Shown: positions 17,706-49,027 of the stretch, in pieces
How positions within the stretch are numbered: the first letter of the stretch is position 1
Layout: every line of letters starts with the position of its first letter
Assembly: GCF_040712075.1 (NCBI RefSeq)
Contig: NZ_JBFCVL010000003.1
Coordinates: forward strand, 186,001-250,000
Length of the DNA: 64,000 nucleotides
Source of the DNA: Fodinicurvata sp. EGI_FJ10296
Lineage (GTDB): Bacteria; Pseudomonadota; Alphaproteobacteria; DSM-16000; Inquilinaceae
Reading direction: 5' to 3'
The notes under the pieces: generated by a model
Seen by the model: the letters and a program-made list of their open reading frames with translations, nothing else
Told to the model about the DNA's origin: nothing
The model's database searches: none
Position numbers and translations under genes: made by a program

Positions 17706-17795
17706 TCCCGGGCGCTGCGCGGCACGAAGTGACGCGTTGCCAACCCGGGATCTCGGCAGCAGCAACTTCCAGAGCGCGAGACGCGAACCGGGCCC
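17706..17795 (+). repeat. Dispersed intergenic repeat, eroded copy (copy C)
   Basis: About 90 bp resembling the core of the elements at 38751-38914 and 48824-48970. The invariant block CACGAAGTGACGCG is at 17723-17736, preceded by CGGGCGCTGCGCGG and followed by CCGGGATCTCG and CGAACCGGG. The terminal inverted repeats seen in the other copies are not intact here. It lies in the 213-bp gap between the convergent lepA and glpR genes. Confidence 0.7.
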
Positions 17796-38683: not shown

Positions 38684-38750
38684 GCGCTGTCGGCCAGACC
38701 CCCGAACCTGACTCTGCGGGCTTCAAGGACTTTCGTGTATCCTCGCCCCC

Positions 38751-38914
38751 CCACCCCTGATCGTCCCCGCCCTTGTCGTCCTGGGATACCGATCGAGGAC
38801 CTCGAGCCGGATGCACCCGGTTCGTGTGTCACGATCGAGAGTGGCTGCACGAGGTCCCGGGTCGGCGGCGCGTCACTTCGTGGCCGCGCAGCGCACGGGA
38901 CGATCAGGGCGTGG
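38751..38914 (-). repeat. Dispersed intergenic element with terminal inverted repeats (copy B)
   Basis: 164 bp with near-perfect terminal inverted repeats: CCACCCCTGATCGTCCC at the left end and its complement GGGACGATCAGGGCGTGG at the right end. It is an inverted version of the element at 48824-48970. The shared core CACGAAGTGACGCG is on the minus strand at 38869-38882, and the blocks GGGACCTCG and GAACCGGGTGCATCCGG are also shared. There is no coding potential. It lies between gst and the SIMPL-like gene. Confidence 0.85.
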
Positions 38915-39087
38915 AAATCATTTCCGTTTTCGATCTCGTTGCGTGAATGCCGCAGGACATTATCTGGCCCCTGATCGCCCGGGCCTGATCGTTGAAATGC
39001 CTATTCGATACCGCAATTTTGCCCGCTTGGGGCTCAATGCTTCCTGGAATTCGCCAATTCGGTGCCAATGATCGATCAGGAGGTCCC

Positions 39088-39855
39088 ATGAAGTCCCCAG
39101 CCCTCACCGCGAGACTGCTTCCCCTTTCGGCTCTGCTCTCGGTGCTGCCAATCACCGCCGCACTGGCCCAGACGCCGGGCTATCCGCCCATTGTCGACGA
39201 GATCACGCTCACCGTGGCTGAGGAAGGCTGGGTCGAGACGGACACCGCCCGCGTCGTGATCCGGCTGGAAGCGGCCGGCGAAGGATCGGAAGCCGCCGAG
39301 TTGCGCGCCGACTTCCTCGACGTCCTGGAAGATCTCGATCCGGATGCCGACTGGCGCTTCCTGTCATACGATCGCCGTCAGGACAACACCGGCCTGGAAC
39401 GCTGGACTGCACGGGCGGAAGCGCGACTACCGGAAACGGGGCTCGACGGACTCGCTGATGAAGCGCGTGAAGCCAGCCGCCCGGGACTTGCCGTTCAGGT
39501 GGAGGAGACGGATTTCAGCCCCACGCTGGCCGACCGCGAATCGACCACGGCCGACCTGCGGCAGGAAATCTATCAGCGCGCGGGCGAGGAACTGGTCAGG
39601 CTTAACGACGCCTTTCCCGAGCGTGATTTCCGCCTTGCCGGCATCGATTTCGACTATGGCGAGTATCAGCCGATGATGATGGAGCGCGCCGCGCAGCCCA
39701 TGCAGGCGATGGATGCCGGCGGTGGCCGCTCGGCCGCGCCAAGCGTCGCCGTCGCCGAGCGCGTGGAAGTCAGGGCACGAATCCGCCTTTCGGCCTTCGG
39801 CGAAGCGCCCGCCGCCAGCGATAATACCGACGGCGACGCCCGGAACGGCAACTGA
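39088..39855 (+). CDS. Secreted SIMPL/DUF541-like protein
   Basis: A 255-residue protein with a clean signal peptide (MKSPALTARLLPLSALLSVL to ALA-QTP), so it is exported. It contains ITLTVAEEGWVETDTARVVIRLEAAGEGSEAAE near the N-terminus and VAERVEVRARIRLSAF near the C-terminus, the repeated beta-strand pattern of SIMPL (DUF541, Omp28/BP26-like) proteins. A long low-complexity stretch (MMMERAAQPMQAMDAGGG) and an acidic, disordered C-terminal tail are present. The function of such proteins is not settled (stress tolerance reported). The start has AGGAGG seven bases upstream. The family assignment is moderate. Confidence 0.7.
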   Translation: MKSPALTARLLPLSALLSVLPITAALAQTPGYPPIVDEITLTVAEEGWVETDTARVVIRLEAAGEGSEAAELRADFLDVLEDLDPDADWRFLSYDRRQDNTGLERWTARAEARLPETGLDGLADEAREASRPGLAVQVEETDFSPTLADRESTTADLRQEIYQRAGEELVRLNDAFPERDFRLAGIDFDYGEYQPMMMERAAQPMQAMDAGGGRSAAPSVAVAERVEVRARIRLSAFGEAPAASDNTDGDARNGN

Positions 39856-39902
39856 CGCGACGTCATTTCATTGACACCGGGCCCGCTTGATCCCGCTTCG
39901 GG

Positions 39903-40889
39903 TCAGGCGGGTCTGGTTGGCGGCGTTCCCTGGCGGTATCGGCTGAACTGGCCGCCGATCCGATACCGGTCCAGGTAGCTTGGCAGAATGCCTTCCAGGG
40001 CGGTCGTCTCGACACCAAGATCGGCAAGCGTGGGCAGTGCACCGGATACGACATTGTCGTGTTGCAGCTGGGTGACCTGATCGCGCGTCAGAATTTTCAA
40101 CGGCAACCGTTCAAAGATGCTGCCCATGATCCGTGCCACGCTCCATGGCAGCGGCAGGAGAATCCGGCGCCGTCCGATCACCTTGAGCATCAATTCCATC
40201 AACTCGCGGAACGTATAGCTTCGCGGTCCGCCCAGTTCGAAGATTTTGCCCTGGCTATCGTCCCGGTCGAGGCATGCCATGACGGCATCGGCAACATCTC
40301 CGACATAAACAGGCTGGAACCTGGTCTTTCCACCGCCGATCAGGGGCAGGAATGGCGAGAACCGCGTCATATTCGCGAAGCGGTTGAAAAATCCGTCCTC
40401 TGCCCCGAAGACGATCGACGGGCGCAGGATCGTCGCCGCCGGGAAGCCTTCGAGCACAGCCGCCTCGCCGGCAGCCTTGCTGCGGGCATAGTCCGACGGC
40501 GAGTCCGGCGACGCGCCGATTGCCGATACCTGAATCAGGCGCTTCACGCCGGCTTCGGCGGCTATTCTGGCGATCCGGCCGGGCGCTTCGGCGTGAACGG
40601 CCGAGAAGGTCTGCTTGCCCGACGGGGCCAGAATTCCCACCAGATTGATGACGAAATCCGACCCGTCGACGACGGCAGCGACCGAGTCGTCGTCGCGGAT
40701 ATTGGCCGGCAGCGGGACGATCTGACCCACCGACCCCATGGGTTTGAGAAACAATGCCTTGTCCGGGTCGCGCGTCGCGACCCGGACACGCCAGCCCCGC
40801 TTGGCCAGATCACGCACGATGTAGCGGCCCAGAAAACCGGCACCGCCGAATATCGTGACGACGCGGTGGGTTGATGCGGGTGTCGGCAT
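39903..40889 (-). CDS. Complex I NDUFA9-like NAD(P)-binding protein
   Basis: An atypical extended SDR, 328 residues, starting MPTPASTHRVVTIFGGAGFLGRYIV. The Rossmann motif GGAGFLGRY is at about 14-22, with QVSAIGASPDSPSDYARSKAAGEAAV, in which YARSK supplies the Tyr-x-x-x-Lys pair, and LRPSIVFGAEDGFFNRF. These are hallmarks of the bacterial homologues of mitochondrial complex I subunit NDUFA9. The enzymatic reaction, if any, is unknown; bacterial versions are often encoded near tRNA or other housekeeping genes. The upstream ATG at 40976 is less likely. A CGGAGCG ribosome-binding site precedes the chosen start. Confidence 0.88.
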   Translation of the reverse strand: MPTPASTHRVVTIFGGAGFLGRYIVRDLAKRGWRVRVATRDPDKALFLKPMGSVGQIVPLPANIRDDDSVAAVVDGSDFVINLVGILAPSGKQTFSAVHAEAPGRIARIAAEAGVKRLIQVSAIGASPDSPSDYARSKAAGEAAVLEGFPAATILRPSIVFGAEDGFFNRFANMTRFSPFLPLIGGGKTRFQPVYVGDVADAVMACLDRDDSQGKIFELGGPRSYTFRELMELMLKVIGRRRILLPLPWSVARIMGSIFERLPLKILTRDQVTQLQHDNVVSGALPTLADLGVETTALEGILPSYLDRYRIGGQFSRYRQGTPPTRPA

Positions 40890-41182
40890 GCGTTCGCTCC
40901 GGCAATGGTTCAGCGTTCGATATCGGACTGCAGTCGGGACCGGTCGCTGCGCCGCCAGCGCGGCATCATCCGTCATCGTCCCGATGCATCATCCATCATC
41001 CGGGCCTTATATAGGACGACGACGGCGGACTCTAGAGGGGATTCGCCCTACGTCGGCCAGACCCGCTCCCGGACTGTCCGATTCGGCATACCGGGCTCAC
41101 GACCGCCCCCGCGAACGTCCGCTGGCGACGGGCGACATCGAATTTATTTTCGCGACAATCGGACGTCGCTGGCGAACTGATG

Positions 41183-41211
41183 TTGACAGGACGCTCGGCG
41201 TTCATTATCTA
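41183..41211 (+). promoter_or_regulatory. Candidate promoter of tRNA-Leu
   Basis: A perfect TTGACA, a 17-bp spacer and TATCTA, ending 12 bp before the tRNA. The -35 is perfect; the -10 matches 3 of 6, common for stable RNA genes in alphaproteobacteria. It lies in the 333-bp gap between the NDUFA9-like gene and the tRNA, where I see no gene. Confidence 0.55.
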
Positions 41212-41222
41212 CCCGCTCCAGA

Positions 41223-41309
41223 GCCCAGGTGGCGGAATTGGTAGACGCGCTAGCTTCAGGTGCTAGTTCCTGTATGGGAGTGGAAGTTCGAGTCTTCTCC
41301 TGGGCACCA
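41223..41309 (+). tRNA. tRNA-Leu(CAG)
   Basis: 87 nt including encoded CCA. The acceptor pairs GCCCAGG with CCTGGGC with discriminator A. The D-arm is GGCGGAATTGGTAGACGC and the anticodon stem-loop CTAGC-TTCAGGT-GCTAG gives anticodon CAG. A class II variable arm and TTCGAGTC T-loop follow. The sequence of the first half is almost that of E. coli tRNA-Leu(CAG). Confidence 0.96.
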
Positions 41310-41351
41310 TGTAATACCGCTAGGCCGCGCAGATTGCGGTCGATGTCGATG

Positions 41352-41387
41352 CCCGCCCTCTCCTTCCGGTGACGGCGGGTTTTTTTC
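41352..41387 (+). terminator. Rho-independent terminator after tRNA-Leu
   Basis: CCCGCC pairs with GGCGGG, followed by a run of seven or eight T (41380-41387). The loop is about 16 nt, but the T-tract is the clearest in this window. It separates the tRNA from the RNase D-like gene. Confidence 0.72.
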
Positions 41388-41477
41388 GTTCGCGCCAGCC
41401 GCGACGGCGCGGAATCACGATCAGGATGGTTCACAAGAACCCGGAATGGTTCACAAGAACAAGGAAGCCTGCGCCTC

Positions 41478-42110
41478 ATGTTCACTGGCTCGACGCCCCC
41501 GCCGCCTCAACTGCATGTCGGCGATCTGCCGGCCGATATCACCTTCGGGCCGACCGTTGCCGTCGACACGGAGACCATGGGCCTCAACCCGGCCCGCGAC
41601 AGGCTTTGTCTCGTCCAGCTTTCGTCCGGCGACGGCACATCCCATCTTGTGCAGATACCGAAGGGACAATACGAGGCGCCGAATCTGGTCCGTCTTCTCA
41701 GCGATCCGGCAACTTTGAAGCTGTTCCATTTCGCCCGATTCGACGTCGCCGTGCTAAAAGCCTATCTCGGCGTCCAATTGCACCCCGTCTATTGCACAAA
41801 GGTGGCGTCAAAGCTGGTTCGGACTTATACTGATCGGCATGGGCTGAAAGATCTTTGCCGGGATCTGCTTGGCGTGGAAATATCGAAGCAACAACAAACG
41901 TCGGATTGGGGTGCTGAAATATTGACTTCGGACCAGCAACGATACGCAGCAGGCGACGTTCTCTATCTTCATGCCCTCAAGCACCAGCTCGACATTCTGC
42001 TGGCACGCGAGGACCGGACCCATATCGCTCAAGCCTGTTTTGATTTTCTGCCCATCCGCGGCGAACTCGATCTCGGCGGCTGGGATGATCCCGATATCTT
42101 CAGCCATTAA
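41478..42110 (+). CDS. RNase D-like 3'-5' exonuclease, single-domain
   Basis: DEDDy exoribonuclease, 210 residues. Metal-binding residues are visible as Asp and Glu in VAVDTETMG (Exo I), Asp in LFHFARFDVAVL (Exo II) and Tyr and Asp in RYAAGDVLYLH (Exo III). Unlike E. coli RNase D it ends after the catalytic domain, with no HRDC RNA-binding domains. This is the usual short form in many alphaproteobacteria. Likely substrates are tRNA 3' ends or structured RNA, which is noteworthy next to a tRNA gene but not proof. Start at ATG of MFTGSTPPPP has GGAAGCCTGCGCCTC upstream. Confidence 0.9.
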   Translation: MFTGSTPPPPQLHVGDLPADITFGPTVAVDTETMGLNPARDRLCLVQLSSGDGTSHLVQIPKGQYEAPNLVRLLSDPATLKLFHFARFDVAVLKAYLGVQLHPVYCTKVASKLVRTYTDRHGLKDLCRDLLGVEISKQQQTSDWGAEILTSDQQRYAAGDVLYLHALKHQLDILLAREDRTHIAQACFDFLPIRGELDLGGWDDPDIFSH

Positions 42111-42337
42111 GGACGGCGGTCCGGGAAAGGCAGCGGGGCAAGCGCCGGAGTCGGCTGCGGCCGGTCCCATACCGCTTGCCCGTACCTCTGCATTTGCCGT
42201 CGGCCGGCCGAACGCCTGATTTTCGCCTTGCCAGGATCACCATGCGGTCGCATCTCCGGAGGTATAGTGATCCGATTTTCGTTGGTACGTTCGTAGTTCG
42301 CCGCCCGATCGGCCTCATCAACAGAGACTGGGATTTC

Positions 42338-43354
42338 ATGACCGTCCGCCAGCAGCCGATGCCGCACGACAACGCCACGCCCGATACTTCTGCCCCCGAC
42401 GCGGACGCGGTTGCTGCAGGGCGGCGTGTGCTCGCAACGGAAATCGCCGGGCTGGAACGACTGGCGGCAGATCTCGGCGCGTCCTTCGCCGCAGCCGTCG
42501 AAACGATCATGGCGGCGACGGGACGGGTTATCGTGACCGGCATGGGCAAAAGCGGTCATGTCGGCCGCAAGATCGCGGCGACCCTGGCCTCGACCGGCAC
42601 ACCGGCATTCTTCGTCCATCCCAGCGAGGCGAGCCACGGCGACCTCGGCATGGTGACGCCGCAGGATTGCGTGATGGCGTTGTCGAATTCCGGCGGTACC
42701 GCCGAGTTGGCGGACATTATCGCCTACTGCCGTCGTTTCTCGATGCCGATCATTGCCGTCACCGGCGGAGCCCGAAGCCCACTTGCCGAACAGGCGACGG
42801 TGACTCTGTTGCTTCCGGCCACGCGGGAAGCCTGCCCCATGGGCCTGGCGCCGACAACATCCACCACGATGACGCTGGCGCTCGGCGACGCTCTGGCGAT
42901 CGCACTGCTGGAGCGCCGGGGTTTCTCCTCCGAGGATTACAAGATCTTTCACCCGGGCGGCGCGCTCGGCGCCCAGCTGATCAAGGTGTCCGAAGTGATG
43001 CATGCCGGCGACGAACTGCCGCTTGTTACGCCGGAAACGCCGATGGCCGAGGCCATTCTGACCATGACCGCAAAGCGATTCGGCGTCATCGGCATCACCG
43101 GCGCCGACGGCGCCCTTGCAGGCATCGTTACCGATGGTGATCTTCGCCGCCACATGTCCGACACGCTGCTGCAGCGGCCGGTCGGAGAAATCATGACCAC
43201 AGGGCCCCGGCGAATCGGCCCCGGCGCGCTTGCGGCGGAAGCCCTCGGCGTCATGAACACCCATGCCATCACCGTCCTGTTCGTCACCGACGAAAGACGT
43301 CAGCCGCTGGGCATATTGCATATTCACGATGTGCTCCGGGCAGGCGTAGCCTGA
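42338..43354 (+). CDS. kdsD: Arabinose-5-phosphate isomerase (KdsD/KpsF)
   Basis: Converts ribulose-5-phosphate to arabinose-5-phosphate, the first step to Kdo for lipopolysaccharide. The 338-residue protein has the SIS sugar isomerase domain (GKSGHVGRKIAATLASTGTPAFFVHPSEASHGDLG, then SGGTAELADIIAYC) and two C-terminal CBS domains (after the KVSEVMHAGDELPLV and RPVGEIMTTGPRRI segments). The start is the ATG giving MTVRQQPMPHD; longer in-frame sequence upstream is not family-like. It is followed 5 bp later by lptC, so Kdo supply and LPS export are transcribed together, a conserved arrangement. Confidence 0.96.
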   Translation: MTVRQQPMPHDNATPDTSAPDADAVAAGRRVLATEIAGLERLAADLGASFAAAVETIMAATGRVIVTGMGKSGHVGRKIAATLASTGTPAFFVHPSEASHGDLGMVTPQDCVMALSNSGGTAELADIIAYCRRFSMPIIAVTGGARSPLAEQATVTLLLPATREACPMGLAPTTSTTMTLALGDALAIALLERRGFSSEDYKIFHPGGALGAQLIKVSEVMHAGDELPLVTPETPMAEAILTMTAKRFGVIGITGADGALAGIVTDGDLRRHMSDTLLQRPVGEIMTTGPRRIGPGALAAEALGVMNTHAITVLFVTDERRQPLGILHIHDVLRAGVA

Positions 43355-43359
43355 CAGCG

Positions 43360-44082
43360 GTGATGGCGATGGACGCGATGCATACGGGGTCCGGCTCTGG
43401 AAGTGACCTTCGGGACGCCCCTGGAAACAGCCTCGAACAGCGCGGCCGGCGGGCCGCCCGTTTCGGGCCCAGGCGGCGCGATGAAAGCCGGCACAGGGCG
43501 CATTCGCGATTCGTCAGCCTGTTGCGGATCGTCCTGCCGTTGCTGGTCCTTGCCATTGTCAGCTTGATATTCCTGTGGCCCCAGCTGCGCGATGCGGGGC
43601 TGCCGGCAACGACCGTCAGCATCAGCACCTCCGGCGGCGACACCACGGTTCTCAATCCCCGCTACGAGGGGACCGACGCCGGCGATCAGCCCTATCGGAT
43701 CACCGCCGCACAGGCGACGCGGCCGGCCGACAGCGCGGATCGGCTCGACCTGCAGGAACCGGTGGCAGAAATGACGCTGACATCGGGTCGACGTGTGACC
43801 ATCGATTCCGTCAGTGCCGTTTACAATGAAACGACCGAGGATCTGGTCATGCGCGGCGACGTCGAACTGCATCGCGATGACGGATATGTCTTTCGTACCT
43901 CCGAAGCGCACGCCAATGTCGGCGAACAGGTAGTTTGGGGCGATCAGCCCGTGACCGGCAGCGGTCCCGCCGGTACTATCGACGCCGAGGGGTTTCGGGT
44001 CGAGGATTCAGGCAATACGATCATCTTTACCGGTCAATCCCGACTGGTCTTGACGAACGGGCGTGGGGAGCGAAACCAATGA
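43360..44082 (+). CDS. lptC: LPS export protein LptC
   Basis: Single-pass inner-membrane protein of the Lpt bridge, passing LPS from LptBFG to LptA. The 240-residue protein has a basic N-terminal cytosolic tail (RRRDESRHRAHSR), one membrane helix (about 51-73) and a periplasmic beta-jellyroll ending NTIIFTGQSRLVL. GTG at 43360 and ATGs at 43363 and 43369 are all possible starts. Its stop overlaps the lptA start (ATGA), implying coupled translation. Confidence 0.92.
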   Translation: MMAMDAMHTGSGSGSDLRDAPGNSLEQRGRRAARFGPRRRDESRHRAHSRFVSLLRIVLPLLVLAIVSLIFLWPQLRDAGLPATTVSISTSGGDTTVLNPRYEGTDAGDQPYRITAAQATRPADSADRLDLQEPVAEMTLTSGRRVTIDSVSAVYNETTEDLVMRGDVELHRDDGYVFRTSEAHANVGEQVVWGDQPVTGSGPAGTIDAEGFRVEDSGNTIIFTGQSRLVLTNGRGERNQ

Positions 44083-44927
44083 ATCAAACACTGAAACAAA
44101 TGCATCGCCGGGGCGCCTTGCCGACGGTATCTGCGGCGGTTGCCGTTGCTGCGCTGTGGCTGGCCGCCGGAACCGGCACCGTAGACGCCCAGGGCCTGCC
44201 CTTCGGCTCTTCGTCGGACGAACCGATCGAGGTCGACGCCGCCGAGGCGCTGGAATGGTTCGAAGAAGAGCAGATCTACGTCGCCCGGGGCGACGCGCGG
44301 ATGCGCCAGGGCGACGGCACCATCTACGGCGACGTACTTACAGCCCATTACCGGGAAACCGAGGACGGCGAGACCGAGATCTATCGCTTCGTGGCCGAGG
44401 GCAACGTCGTGGCGGAAAACCCGACCGAACGCGCCACCGGCGATCGCGGCGTCTATGAACTGGACGACGACGTCTTTGTCCTGACGGGATCGGAAGTCAG
44501 CTATGAGACCCCGATTGAACGCGTGACGGCGTCCGATCGGCTGGAATACTGGCAGAGCCGCAATCTCGCGCGCGCTATCGGCGATGCCATGGCTGTTAAC
44601 AAGGAGGACGGCAATCAGATTTCCGCCGATGAACTGGTCGCCGAATTCGGCGAGAACGACAACGGAGATCGCTCGATCAGTGTCGTCAACGCCGAGGGCA
44701 ATGTTGAAATCATCACGGATACCGACGTCGCCCACGGCGACGAGGGTGTATACGACCTGCGCACCGGCATCGCAACATTGACCGGCAATGTCGCACTGAC
44801 CCGGGGCGACAATCAGCTGGAGGGCGACGTCGCCGAGGTCAACATGAACACAGGTGCGAGCCGACTGCTTTCGTCGGGAGAAGAAGGGACCGGCGACCGC
44901 GTCCGCGGCCTTCTGTTCTCGAACTGA
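44079..44927 (+). CDS. lptA: LPS transport periplasmic protein LptA
   Basis: Periplasmic bridge protein that carries LPS across the periplasm. The 282-residue protein starts [12 protein letters not shown], with a signal peptide ending near TVDA-QG. The body repeats the OstA beta-strand pattern ([67 protein letters not shown]). It is longer than E. coli LptA (185 residues), as is usual in alphaproteobacteria. It sits between lptC and lptB in the LPS-export block. Confidence 0.92.
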
Positions 44928-44974
44928 GCGCCCGCCCCCCTTATGCCCCGCCCCCTCATACGCCGAGATATCCG

Positions 44975-45772
44975 ATGGATGGCCGCAGCGATCAGTTGAT
45001 GACGACCGGGCCCGCGACCGATGGCGAGCCCGCTGGCGTGGAAGAGGGCCTGGGTGGTCTGGAAGCCCTGCATCTGGGCAAACACTACCGCCGGCGGCCA
45101 ATTCTTCGCGACGTGTCCCTGAGGGTGCGACGGGGAGAGGCCGTGGGTCTGCTCGGCCCGAACGGCGCCGGCAAAACCACGAGCTTCTACATCATCACCG
45201 GGTTGGTGATGCCGGACACAGGCAGCATCCTTCTCGATGGCGAAGACGTCACCGGATTGCCCATGTATCGGCGCGCCCGGATGGGGATCGGCTACCTTCC
45301 GCAGGAAGCTTCGATCTTCCGCGGGCTGACCGTCGAGCAGAACATTCTCGCCGTCCTTGAAGCAACGGAACCCGATCGCGAGGTCCGCGCCGCCATGCTG
45401 GAGGATCTGCTGGCCGAATTCTCGATCAGCCATCTGCGGCGGGCATCGGCACTCGCGCTGTCGGGCGGGGAAAGACGGCGTTGCGAGATCGCCCGTTCTT
45501 TGGCCAGCCGGCCGAATTTCATGCTCCTCGACGAGCCTCTGGCCGGCATCGACCCGATTGCCGTCTCGGATATCCGCGACCTCGTCACTCAGTTGCGCGA
45601 CCGGGGTATCGGCGTCCTTATAACGGACCACAATGTTCGTGAGACATTGGAGATTGTCGACCGCGCCTATATCCTCCACGATGGCGCTGTGCTGATGGAG
45701 GGTGCGCCGCAGGATATCGTCGCACACGGCGATGTCCGGCGAGTCTATCTCGGTGAACGTTTCAGCCTTTAA
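44975..45772 (+). CDS. lptB: LPS export ABC ATPase LptB
   Basis: ATPase powering LPS extraction by LptFG (the FG genes are not in this window). The 265-residue protein has Walker [10 protein letters not shown], the signature [17 protein letters not shown], Walker [18 protein letters not shown] and the switch motif [12 protein letters not shown], all typical of LptB. The N-terminal 30 residues are a variable extension. The gene is followed after 12 bp by rpoN, the usual neighbour in proteobacteria. Confidence 0.96.
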
Positions 45773-45784
45773 CGAAGCCGGTAT

Positions 45785-47338
45785 ATGGCGCTCACACAAC
45801 GACTTGATCTGAGGCAGTCGCAGCAACTTGTGATGACGCCCCAGTTGCAGCAGGCCATCAAGCTGCTGCAACTGTCGAATCTCGAACTGGTCGAGTATAT
45901 CGATCAGGCTGTGGAGCAGAATCCGTTGCTCGAACGGGGCCGTGCCGAGGATGAGGGACAGTCGCCCGACGACCGCGGCATGGCCGACTATGCGCCGCCC
46001 GAGCCCGAAGCCAGGAGCGATGACGCGGATCGCACCGGTCTCGACGTGCTGACATCGTCTGAACATCTGAGGCCCGACAACGACGGCCCGCTCGATGTCG
46101 GGTCGGACGACTTCAACAGCGACTTCGGCCCCGGCGACGGTCAGCAGGGCAATCCCGGCGAGGCCACACCGGAATACAAGGAAAACTGGGGTAACGGCGG
46201 CTCCCGGGACTTCGACGGCACCCACCCGGAAATCGATGAATTTCTTGCCGGCGAGATTACGCTGCGCGACCACCTGACAGGCCAGATCAATGTCGATATC
46301 AGCGAGCCCCTGATCCGGCGCGTCGCCCTCCATCTCCTGGAGTATCTGGACGATGCCGGCTATTTTGGGGGTTCGGAAGATGAAATCGCCCGCGAACTGA
46401 CGGTGTCCGTCACGATCGTCGGGACAGCCCTGCACCGGGTTCAGCAGCTCGATCCTCCGGGGATTTTTGCGCGGACGCTTCGGGAATGCCTGGCTATTCA
46501 ACTCGCCGGAAAAGATCGGCTCGACCCTGCGATGTCGGCGCTGCTGGATCACCTGCCGCTGCTGGCGAAACGCGACTACGCCACCCTGACGCGGCTATGC
46601 GGCGTCGACATGGAAGACATGTCAGCCATGGTGGCGGAGATCAGGGCGCTGAACCCCCGCCCGGCGGCACGATTCGGCGCAGCCCCAGTTCATACGGTGA
46701 CTCCCGACATTCTCATGTCGCGCAAGGCCGATGGCAGCTGGCTGATCGAATTGAACCCTGAAACGCTGCCCCGGGTGCTCGTCAACCGCCCCTATTATCA
46801 GGAGGTGTCGCAGTCGATGACGGAGAAGAGCGACAAGGAATACCTTTCCGAGTGCATGGCGTCGGCCAACTGGCTGGTGAAGTCGCTCCACCAGCGCCAG
46901 ACCACGATTCTCAAGGTTGCCGGCGAAATCATCCGTCAGCAATCGCCCTTTTTCGAAAGCGGCGTTCGGGCGCTGAAGCCTCTGGTGCTCAAAGACATCG
47001 CCGATGCGATCGGCATGCACGAAAGCACGGTCAGCCGCGTGACCTCCAACAAGTTCATGGCGACGCCGCGCGGCGTCTTCGAGCTGAAATATTTCTTTAC
47101 CTCCTCCATCCAGGGTGCGGATGGCGGCGTGGCTCATTCGGCCGAGGCCGTAAGATCGCGGATCAAGGCACTCGTCGACGCCGAAACGAGCGATACGGTG
47201 CTGTCGGATGATCGAATCGTCGAAATTCTTCGGGCAGACGGTGTCGACATCGCCCGTCGAACGATAGCAAAGTATCGCGAAGCGCTTCGCATACCGTCAT
47301 CGGTCCAGAGGCGCCGCGAAAAGGGGATACGACCTTGA
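45785..47338 (+). CDS. rpoN: RNA polymerase sigma-54 factor
   Basis: Alternative sigma factor for nitrogen- and stress-related promoters that need an AAA+ activator. The 517-residue protein shows region I (Gln-rich, QRLDLRQSQQLVMTPQLQQAIKLLQLSN), an acidic region II rich in Asp/Glu, the core-binding domain and the C-terminal DNA-binding part. The RpoN box is visible as ARRTIAKYREAL, and an HTH near HESTVSRVTSNKFMATPRGVFELKYFF. It is co-transcribed with lptB and followed by hpf and ptsN, the conserved rpoN cluster. Confidence 0.97.
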   Translation: MALTQRLDLRQSQQLVMTPQLQQAIKLLQLSNLELVEYIDQAVEQNPLLERGRAEDEGQSPDDRGMADYAPPEPEARSDDADRTGLDVLTSSEHLRPDNDGPLDVGSDDFNSDFGPGDGQQGNPGEATPEYKENWGNGGSRDFDGTHPEIDEFLAGEITLRDHLTGQINVDISEPLIRRVALHLLEYLDDAGYFGGSEDEIARELTVSVTIVGTALHRVQQLDPPGIFARTLRECLAIQLAGKDRLDPAMSALLDHLPLLAKRDYATLTRLCGVDMEDMSAMVAEIRALNPRPAARFGAAPVHTVTPDILMSRKADGSWLIELNPETLPRVLVNRPYYQEVSQSMTEKSDKEYLSECMASANWLVKSLHQRQTTILKVAGEIIRQQSPFFESGVRALKPLVLKDIADAIGMHESTVSRVTSNKFMATPRGVFELKYFFTSSIQGADGGVAHSAEAVRSRIKALVDAETSDTVLSDDRIVEILRADGVDIARRTIAKYREALRIPSSVQRRREKGIRP

Positions 47339-47505
47339 TGGCAGCCATGATGGCAGGCCGGTTTGCGTTTGCCTGCCGACGATTTGGGTTTACCCTGTGC
47401 GAACCGGGCCCGGATCGGCTCTTCGAGCCGGGCGAAAGGTACACGAGCGGCGATGCCGTTTTCGTCACTGCGAACAGGAGGCGCCGTGCCCCGCCGCGCC
47501 CGCGC

Positions 47506-47535
47506 TTGACAATGATCTGGCAGCGTCCCTATGGT
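47506..47535 (+). promoter_or_regulatory. Candidate promoter of hpf
   Basis: TTGACA, an 18-bp spacer and TATGGT (perfect -35, 4/6 -10), about 75 bp before the hpf ATG in the 271-bp rpoN-hpf gap. It would let hpf and ptsN be expressed separately from the rpoN unit. Confidence 0.5.
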
Positions 47536-47609
47536 CCCGGCCCGCGAGACTGGGGCCACCGAAGACGCTACAGCTTCCGTCCTCATCCATCACTTCTGGA
47601 AGTACGACC

Positions 47610-48215
47610 ATGCAGCTTACGGTCAAGGGCAAACAGCTCGATGTAGGCGATGCTCTCCGCACACATGTGGAAACTGAGCTCACCGAGATTACGGAGAAAT
47701 ATTTCTCCAATCCGATACAGGCGTCCGTCGTTTTCACCAAGACGGCCCATCTCTATCGGACCGATATTGCTGTGCATGTCGGCCGCGACATTCATATGAA
47801 TGCGCAGGCCGAAGCCGACGCTCCCTATGCCGCATGCGACAAGGCCGTCGAGAAGATCGCCAAGCGGCTGCGCCGCTACAAGCGCCGGCTGCGCGATCAC
47901 CACCGGGACGTTGGTTCGACGGGCGAGGTCATGGCAGCCCACGCCTATGTCCTCGAGGCAGAGCCCGAGGCCGAAAGCGATGACTACAACGAACCGGATC
48001 ATCCGGTCATCGTGGCCGAGACGCCGACGGATATCGAAACCCTGACCGTCCCGCAGGCCGTCATGCGCCTCGACCTGGCTGACCTGCCGGCTCTGATGTT
48101 CCGCAATCCCAAACAGGGAAACCTGAATATGGTCTATCGTCGGCCGGACGGGAATATCGGTTGGGTCGATCCTCAGGTCTCAGGCTCGCAAGACACCGAG
48201 ACTGCAGCAAAGTGA
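47610..48215 (+). CDS. hpf: Ribosome hibernation promoting factor, long form
   Basis: Binds the ribosome to inactivate and dimerise it in stationary phase or under stress. The 201-residue protein has the N-terminal RaiA/S30AE domain (MQLTVKGKQLDVGDALRTHVE, then VVFTKTAHLYRTDIAVHV and basic AKRLRRYKRRLRDHH) and the C-terminal dimerisation domain (LPALMFRNPKQGNLNMVYRRPDGNIGW). The two-domain layout is the long form, which makes 100S ribosomes alone. ATG at 47610 gives the standard start; there is no strong Shine-Dalgarno. ptsN follows by 31 bp. Confidence 0.95.
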   Translation: MQLTVKGKQLDVGDALRTHVETELTEITEKYFSNPIQASVVFTKTAHLYRTDIAVHVGRDIHMNAQAEADAPYAACDKAVEKIAKRLRRYKRRLRDHHRDVGSTGEVMAAHAYVLEAEPEAESDDYNEPDHPVIVAETPTDIETLTVPQAVMRLDLADLPALMFRNPKQGNLNMVYRRPDGNIGWVDPQVSGSQDTETAAK

Positions 48216-48246
48216 TCAGTCGGTCCCCCACGAAAGGATCGCCGTT

Positions 48247-48705
48247 ATGGTGGACTTCGTAACGCCGGCCAGCATCATCCCGGTCCTGAGGGGTACCAGC
48301 AAGAAGCAGGTATTGCAGGAATTGGCCCGGCACGCCGCCACTGTAACGGGGCTGCGTGAACGGGCCATTTTCGACGTCCTGCTGGACCGCGAAAAACTGG
48401 GCACCACGGGTGTCGGCCGCGGTGTCGCGATACCGCACGGCAAACTGCCGCAACTGACCAGTGTTCACGGATTTGTTGCCAAGCTTGAAAAGCCGATCGA
48501 CTTCGACGCTGTGGACGACGCTCCGGTCGATCTGATTTTCATGCTGCTGGCGCCTGAAAAAGCCGGCGCCGATCACCTCAAAGCCCTCGCCAAGGTCTCG
48601 CGCCTGTTGCGGGACCCCGCCTTGTGCCAGAAACTGCGGGGCTGCGAGACGAGCGATGCGATTTTTGCCGTGATCGCGTCCCAACTCGACGCCAGCGCGG
48701 CCTGA
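48247..48705 (+). CDS. ptsN: Nitrogen-regulatory PTS protein IIA-Ntr (PtsN)
   Basis: Phosphorelay protein of the nitrogen PTS that links carbon, nitrogen and potassium metabolism. The 152-residue EIIA(Fru/Ntr) domain contains the phosphorylated His64 in GVGRGVAIPHGKL and the downstream FDAVDDAPVDLIFMLLAPEKAGADHLKALAKVSRLL. It is the typical neighbour downstream of hpf in rpoN clusters. The gene ends 119 bp before the dispersed repeat at 48824. Confidence 0.95.
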   Translation: MVDFVTPASIIPVLRGTSKKQVLQELARHAATVTGLRERAIFDVLLDREKLGTTGVGRGVAIPHGKLPQLTSVHGFVAKLEKPIDFDAVDDAPVDLIFMLLAPEKAGADHLKALAKVSRLLRDPALCQKLRGCETSDAIFAVIASQLDASAA

Positions 48706-48823
48706 CCGCCAGACCCTCCGGCACGGCCGCCGCCGTCCAGGGAGCGCATCGTCATTCCTCATCGCGCCCGACTTGATCGCTACGGTATTCACACAATGAG
48801 ATCGATAGCGGAAATGGTGAGTT

Positions 48824-48970
48824 CCACACCCTGATCGTCCCGGGCGCAGCGCGACACGAAGTGACGCGTTGGCGATCCGGGACCTCGTGGAGCAACTCTC
48901 AGTCGTGACACTCGAACCGGGTGCATCCGGCTCGGGGGTCCCCGATGGATGTCGGGGACGATCAGGGTGG
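48824..48970 (+). repeat. Dispersed intergenic element with terminal inverted repeats (copy A)
   Basis: 147 bp bounded by CCACACCCTGATCGTCCC and the inverted GGGACGATCAGGGTGG. It contains the shared core CACGAAGTGACGCG at 48855-48868 and the blocks GGGACCTCG and CGAACCGGGTGCATCCGG. An inner pairing (ATCCGGGACC with GGTCCCCGAT) could fold a second stem. It matches the element at 38751-38914 in the opposite orientation. No coding potential and no target-site duplication were seen. It lies in the 443-bp ptsN/DUF1150 gap. Confidence 0.87.
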
Positions 48971-48993
48971 AGGATGGGAAGGGTTACATAGGA

Positions 48994-49027
48994 AAAAAGC
49001 CGCCGAATGTTTATCGGGCGGCTTTTT
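48994..49027. terminator. Strong bidirectional terminator
   Basis: AAAAAAGCCGCC pairs with GGCGGCTTTTT around a loop of about 11 nt. It has A-runs on one side and T-runs on the other, so it can terminate both the ptsN message and the convergent DUF1150 message. It lies 24 bp after the dispersed repeat. Confidence 0.85.

Follow-up and report, generated by a model that had tools for sequence, protein, structure and literature searches.

Within a 64,000-nucleotide stretch of the draft genome of Fodinicurvata sp. EGI_FJ10296 (contig NZ_JBFCVL010000003.1, positions 186,001 to 250,000; hereafter the window), we analyzed a dispersed, palindrome-rich intergenic element of ~240 bp, represented by two copies in opposite orientation (A and B) and a core fragment (C). 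The element very probably belongs to a family of miniature inverted-repeat transposable elements (MITEs) with 18-bp terminal inverted repeats (CTACGNNATTCACANATC in its own genome, CTAYSGNATTCACANATC in relatives) and a 10-bp target duplication in GC-rich palindromes. As far as our searches reached, and with the nearest known systems compared by description only, it is best read as a new MITE family, and the recurrence of one kind of end around unlike palindromic interiors across many genomes is likewise new. It is probably a mobile element that borrowed a Tn5-like enzyme and inserted in small palindromes just 3′ of genes. A first-pass annotation of the window had proposed either a MITE-like or an RNA-structural element, and the former proposal is the one borne out by the terminal repeats, the 10-bp duplication, the many dispersed copies, the lack of a transposase-size reading frame, and the transposase sequence found beside such ends elsewhere.

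The fixed length of the target duplication was apparent from the flanks of the copies in the same genome (4.83 Mb in 32 contigs, labeled G000). Motif matching alone served to place the ends in 26 copies; both ends matched at ≥9/14 in 17, which were retained, and the other 9 were dropped. This threshold is loose, as copy B passes it by chance, and a tandem array and two members of a second family (family II, see below) are counted among the 17. When the 10-bp flanks were compared, 9/17 pairs matched at ≥8/10, three of them at 10/10, vs 1.1% of mismatched left/right pairs, and mean flank identity was 6.4/10 at shift 0 compared to 2.1–3.5 at shifts of 1–4. Individual scores were 5 for copy A, 3 for copy B, 1/10 and 2/10 for the two family II copies, and 2/10 for the tandem array on contig C11, which by inspection displays a 9/10 direct repeat (GGTGGTGACC/AGTGGTGACC) once the left end is shifted one base. 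Targets rebuilt by joining the flanks at the 10 sites with a duplication of ≥7/10 were GC-rich palindromes, with a palindromy of 5.1/11 vs an intergenic background of 2.85, a value that none of 20,000 random draws reached.

The boundaries of the element were obtained from an alignment of 30 copies, in which conservation extends well beyond the CCCTGATCGTCCC arms. These arms, which the first-pass annotation took for the ends of the element, are its inner stem; the true ends lie ~40–50 bp further out, where the unit runs from CTACGGTATTCACACATCGAGATCGAT to GATCTGTGAATCGCGTAG, i.e., the 18-bp outer inverted repeats. Between the inner arms, the interior consists of a core hairpin resembling repetitive extragenic palindromes (REPs) and of smaller hairpins, and the core hairpin also occurs on its own elsewhere in the genome. 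The two copies previously placed at 38751–38914 and 48824–48970 are present, with perfect inner arms of 13 nt and 15 nt, respectively, and the whole unit spans 38714–38955 in copy A and starts at 48780 in copy B. For the third copy, reported at 17706–17795, the core could be matched at 17706–17792 but no ends accompany it. The features in the window are as follows:

38714..38955, minus strand: copy A, complete (242 bp), bounded by outer terminal repeats CTGCGGGCTTCA.../...TGAATGCCGCAG
38704..38713, no strand: copy A, left candidate target-duplication site GAACCTGACT
38956..38965, no strand: copy A, right candidate target-duplication site GACATTATCT
38755..38767, plus strand: copy A, inner stem arm (the "end" of the first-pass annotation), 13 nt, perfect inverted arm
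38897..38909, plus strand: copy A, inner stem partner arm, 13 nt, perfect inverted arm
38839..38899, minus strand: copy A, core REP-like hairpin (G000:C3:224839-224899, core-hairpin search)
48780..48970, plus strand: copy B, left outer terminal repeat CTACGGTATTCACACAATG kept, right outer end lost
48839..48898, plus strand: copy B, core REP-like hairpin (G000:C3:234839-234898, core-hairpin search)
48827..48841, plus strand: copy B, inner stem arm, 15 nt, perfect inverted arm
48955..48969, plus strand: copy B, inner stem partner arm, 15 nt, perfect inverted arm
48938..48959, plus strand: copy B, small hairpin GTCCCCGA...TCGGGGAC (inverted-repeat search)
17706..17792, plus strand: copy C, core hairpin fragment without terminal repeats

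The outer arms of copy A (38714–38725 and 38944–38955) were also recovered by an inverted-repeat search, and its flanks GAACCTGACT and GACATTATCT are identical at just 5/10 positions, so that its duplication has either decayed or never existed. For copy B, the "right end" of the motif placement is a 9/14 match inside a terminator-like hairpin and was taken as chance. That hairpin, a strong intrinsic-terminator-like structure at 48993–49027 (GCCGCC...GGGCGGC, followed by T's and preceded by A's), occupies the expected right outer end of copy B. The longest open frames wholly within the element encode 57 aa (copy A) and 45 aa (copy B), i.e., none is of transposase size in the window copies, on which the absence of a transposase gene was judged. 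By Pfam, the genes beside the window copies belong to GST, PTS_EIIA_2 (ptsN-like), and LepA, in agreement with their earlier naming as gst, ptsN, and lepA. The outer terminal repeat contains GATTC (GANTC, a CcrM-type site) when G precedes ATTC, often at one end only.

The element is short, multi-copy, and dispersed. With copy B as query, blastn returned at least 54 rows in its own genome (E ≤ 1; best other copy E 4.5e-54), a lower bound since 40 of the 87 candidates were scored; at least 21 of these rows, the query's own place included, cover ≥147/191 bases at 80–100% identity. The first-pass annotation would have abandoned its reading had there been three copies only and nothing in relatives, and both these counts and the recurrence of the ends in relatives (below) speak otherwise. 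In the same genome, the end pattern was found at 34 sites at ≤2 mismatches, some of them lone, while the reversed-pattern control yielded 0. Both outer ends were placed in 17/26 copies, by chance in the case of copy B, and 14 of the 17 measure 224–244 bp, the length of copy B among them depending on its chance right end; the rest are the tandem array (575 bp) and the two family II copies (299 and 517 bp).

Several variants of this organization were observed in the same genome. The second family (C5:448731-449027 = L107:1232-1528, and others) has the outer end and inner arm in common with the element and a different interior, REP-like CCCCGGAGGCGCGAAGCGCCATCCGGGG; a whole-query search returned 64 rows, and the two copies tested lack a 10-bp duplication. 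The tandem array (L074, G000:C11:22927-23489) contains the element three times. A mixed array (L065, G000:C5:472383-472809) alternates core hairpins with the second family's hairpin in opposite orientation, with a period of ~203 bp, reminiscent of bacterial interspersed mosaic elements (BIMEs). Element or hairpin fragments also lie within ~150 bp of contig ends (L068, L069, and L072, on contigs C14, C12, and C8), suggesting that additional copies probably account for breaks in the assembly.

Next, we evaluated the distribution of the element and of its ends in other genomes. The whole element was found in none of the 16 other genomes of the family, searched in full (one 52-bp match), and in none of 384 other genomes of the class, with ≤2 candidates scored per genome (one 26-bp match). 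Similarly, none of the best 20 blastn alignments across the 84 stretches of the 18-mer scans (81 genome and 3 viral) exceeded 40 bp, and the core hairpin alone was matched weakly, at 4 places across 3 genomes of genus g3, a sister genus. The ends did recur: CTACGNNATTCACANATC was detected at ≤1 mismatch in 8/17 family genomes, including 6/6 of the sister genus, and the degenerate end CTAYSGNATTCACANATC without mismatch in 7/385 class genomes (its own plus single genomes of six other families), with 0 hits for the control in both cases. Since ~3 chance hits are expected in the class set from base counts, single hits prove little; one genome, G296, has 7 CTAYSGNATTCACANATC hits.

Between inward-facing ends, the interiors differ from genome to genome, with CCTCTCCCGC...GCGGGAGAGG palindromes in the sister genus, CCCGGATCAAGTCCGGGGACGACG in G009, ATTCCCGCGAAGG palindromes in G066, and CCTCTCCTGGAAGGAGAGGG in G296. 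Outside its own genome, 13/33 inward-facing end pairs displayed a 10-bp duplication at ≥8/10, compared to 2.5% of mismatched pairs; these 33 are all the pairs of 90–1,414 bp in the non-own loci examined, two loci being counted with two partners each, and this count supersedes a hand-chosen set in which 8/20 elements had a duplication (null 2.9%). Target palindromy in the 20 chosen elements reached 5.4/11, vs 3.2 for positions drawn at random from loci of that kind, and many sister-genus targets were CCCTCCC...GGGAGGG hairpins. We also considered whether the cargo resembles its target as a general rule and dropped the idea, as z > 3 was obtained in 8/18 elements elsewhere but in 1/10 of the own copies; such likeness is kept solely as a possibility.

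On viral contigs, the end was found in 6 stretches and inward-facing pairs in two, both with 10/10 duplications and counted among the 13 above. The corresponding elements, L302:10843-11223 (381 bp) and L304:3319-3609 (291 bp), carry perfect palindromic 10-bp duplications (CCGGCGCCGG and CCGCTTGCGG, respectively) and are too short for a transposase.

To identify the mobilizing enzyme, we looked for transposase sequences beside such ends. In G339, the end CTACGGCATTCACACATT (17/18) occurs on two contigs, followed by identical sequence, and one of these contigs reads on into transposase sequence of the IS4 family (NF033590; fragment score 114.8 bits, cut-off 160). In G371, an 18/18 end begins 24 bp beyond the remnant of a related transposase that carries an internal deletion. 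G296 carries two Tn5-like elements of 1,423 and 1,424 bp whose proteins are 99–100% alike, one being apparently frameshifted; their transposase scores 255.4 bits to NF033590 and has the Tn5 transposase as best PDB match (E 5e-40). One of these (L329) has MITE ends on both sides (4 and 1 mismatches) and a 3/10 duplication, the other (L324) on the right side only. Past the terminal repeat, 3 of 14 other ends examined in this genome agree at 25–27/30 bases with the right-hand MITE end at L324, and 1/14 agrees at 25 bases with the left-hand one at L329. Judging from these sequences, the evidence for an IS4-family (Tn5-like) mobilizer is good but incomplete, and such an enzyme is likely. The first-pass annotation had suggested a search for a transposase with matching ends: such ends do adjoin incomplete IS4-family sequence, in G339 and G371, but no complete insertion sequence (IS) with both of these ends was obtained in the genomes searched, and in the own genome no transposase sequence was found beside such a pair.

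Three further observations in G296 concern long end pairs. Both Tn5-like ISs (L324:1535-2958 and L329:589-2011) are bordered by half-hairpins, and their flanks are hybrid or inverted, resembling the outcome of recombination between two copies. A 1,414-bp pair (L305:1061-2474 = G296:C1:2355560-2356973) was rejected as an autonomous partner, as it holds an IS110-family remnant split over two frames; this MITE has a perfect 10-bp duplication. Finally, a 1,357-bp end pair (L295:162-1518; 3 and 0 mismatches) has an 8/10 duplication and no hit to the Tn5-like protein.

A number of these results weigh against a MITE family moved by an IS4-family transposase. A good duplication is missing from 8/17 own copies, both family II copies among them, and from 20/33 end pairs elsewhere. 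Both G339 copies run off their contigs, the longer of the two with a frameshift, the left end of the G371 remnant was looked for and not found, and the ends CTACGGCCTTKACGGAA of the 1,424-bp Tn5-like IS of G296 are related to the MITE ends in part only. A complete IS bounded by both ends CTACGGCATTCACACAT was not found in the genomes searched, and the six DDE_Tnp_1 matches in the own genome have no end pair within 1.5 kb (best single sites: 5/18 mismatches).

The position of the element relative to genes was evaluated for 28 copies with a home-made codon-model gene caller, whose call at C7:27140 overlaps an element and is doubtful. All 28 copies lie downstream of at least one called gene, a bias that the first-pass annotation had proposed from three sites: 15 are in convergent, 13 in tandem, and 0 in divergent intergenic regions. 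In a 400-kb background, by comparison, convergent and divergent contexts account for 9% and 29% of all intergenic sequence by length (P 3e-9 and 7e-5) and for 14% and 21% of intergenic regions of ≥30 bp (P 1.5e-6 and 0.0016). Either a preference for gene-end sites or the purging of upstream insertions may underlie this pattern, as both fit and the data do not separate them. One refinement of the MITE reading, compatible with it, is that transcription terminators are the specific target of insertion, which would directly explain the 3′ position and for which the convergent excess, the palindromic target sites, and the hairpins at many sister-genus targets can be cited. However, the mean fold energy of the 10 reconstructed targets (−15.9) is hardly apart from that of random convergent intergenic sequence (−14.2; −12.5 for tandem and −11.2 for divergent regions), and purging of upstream insertions predicts the same pattern, so that we regard terminator targeting as possible but rather unlikely.

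Two other explanations would remove the element from the MITEs altogether. If it were a conserved structured RNA or a 3′-untranslated regulatory element under selection, i.e., a terminator, stabilizer, or small RNA, its place downstream of genes in 28/28 copies would be expected, and its consensus fold indeed outscores shuffled sequence on each strand (z −4.7 and −5.9, respectively); inverted repeats at the ends and nested inside, however, would suffice for such a strong fold. The first-pass annotation had also noted inner arms that pair despite base differences between copies. The arms of its example do pair, but with the labels swapped, ATCCGGGACC/GGTCCCCGAT belonging to copy B (48875–48884/48937–48946) and GGACCTCG/CGAGGTCC to copy A. 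Across 21 copies, 7/38 pairs changed on both sides, in 8 cells, which exceeds the 2.2 pairs of shuffles (0/500 reach 7) and the 0–4 of slid versions, but is weak as covariation; a strand test leaving out the helix set one base off counted 18 G-T and 45 A-C cells, a single pair contributing 14 of the A-C cells. Against an RNA also stand the mixed orientation relative to tandem genes (6 same, 7 opposite), the restriction of the whole element to a single genome among those searched, and Rfam, in which no family matches the element at gathering score and the window matches are two tRNAs only. We thus rejected an RNA gene, and consider RNA structure as the primary identity most unlikely. REPs and BIMEs of the type spread by REP-associated tyrosine transposases (RAYTs, of the Y1/HUH type) are not known to be associated with target duplication. 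A repeat of that type, rather than a DDE-type MITE, would account for the REP-like interior hairpins, the solitary core hairpins, the mixed array at C5:472383-472809, and the GTAG in which the terminal repeat ends, as in REPs. It would leave aside the 10-bp duplications and long terminal repeats, and the transposase sequence adjoining such ends elsewhere is of the IS4 family; moreover, the own draft genome has 0 matches to Y1_Tnp (PF01797), in a search that was positive in 5/14 control genomes. Spread by a RAYT is accordingly highly improbable here.

A MITE family with REP-like interiors has several relatives among known systems. Sinorhizobium meliloti, the host of ISRm22, is an alphaproteobacterium, and IS1111 belongs to the IS110 family. 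ISRm22, itself of the IS4 family, is described in the sections concerned as inserting into palindromic REP elements at the palindrome axis, with 6-bp direct repeats (Tobes and Pareja 2006, PMC1525189). It resembles our case through the IS4 family, the likely mobilizer here, and through its palindromic target, but it is an IS with 6-bp repeats, whereas our element is non-coding, ~240 bp long, and has 10-bp duplications. QMITE2 of Coxiella burnetii is presented, in the parts of its description drawn on here, as a ~190-bp MITE with a GTAG REP, located mostly in 3′ untranslated regions and targeted by IS1111, with direct repeats of 7–9 bp, terminal inverted repeats of 23–29 bp, and truncated copies that resemble REPs (PMC10969869). 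Like our element, it is a MITE with a REP inside, 3′ of genes, and the G296 MITE with an IS110-family remnant parallels its role as an IS1111 target; it differs in its repeats (7–9 vs 10 bp), its terminal inverted repeats (23–29 vs 18 bp), and its host. Members of a type II MITE family, according to the same review, may share ends only (PMC10969869). With ISRm22 at the REP axis and QMITE2 carrying a REP in 3′ untranslated regions, both ideas are already in print.

Other systems share fewer features. CIR elements of Caulobacter and other alphaproteobacteria are likewise intergenic and palindromic, and are characterized in the relevant passages as ~110 bp long and built of two arms joined by a linker, lacking terminal inverted repeats and with an unknown target duplication (PMC2229807); the terminal inverted repeats of our element, compared by description, place it outside that definition. 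REPs and BIMEs, which are tied to HUH tyrosine transposases, the RAYTs, in the text cited (PMC3733652), resemble it through interior hairpins and mixed arrays, but an HUH transposase would be expected and none was found in the own draft genome, and the 10-bp duplications set our element further apart. For Tn5, a frequent target is a palindrome whose direct repeats are capped by G/C pairs, and the IS50 target is given as 9 bp in the portion on this transposon (PMC1525189), compared to 10 bp here; the Tn5/IS50 transposase is the closest solved relative of the G296 transposase. The available part of a paper on Paracoccus mobile elements mentions MITEs once, in the introduction (PMC3281130). A text search, which misses figures and most subscription journals, gave no paper on this repeat family among the literature matches listed, and the listed papers that contain the letters of the end seem unrelated by title.

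For this MITE family, we propose that an IS4-family (Tn5-like) transposase acting in trans would have cut at the ends of the element and pasted it elsewhere, and that this enzyme would since have been lost from the own genome or lie in an assembly gap. Insertions upstream of genes may have been purged or disfavored, and the interior hairpins could be REP-like palindromes that were picked up and then spread with the element. Tentatively, and with considerable doubt, this might extend to one alphaproteobacterial set of ends that is served by IS4-family transposases targeting the palindrome axis, and that picks up and spreads the palindromic repeats of a genome; such pick-up of local palindromes between shared ends would explain the different hairpins in different genomes.

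These findings bear on how REP-like palindromes spread in genomes without a RAYT. Here, they sit in elements with ordinary DDE-transposon hallmarks, in a genome in which no RAYT was detected, and their strong folds could easily be mistaken for regulatory RNA, which calls for caution. If the proposed scenario is true, it would provide a second, RAYT-independent route for the multiplication of REP-like palindromes, and if the transposase both targets and picks up palindromes, the origin of many alphaproteobacterial intergenic hairpin families would become testable.

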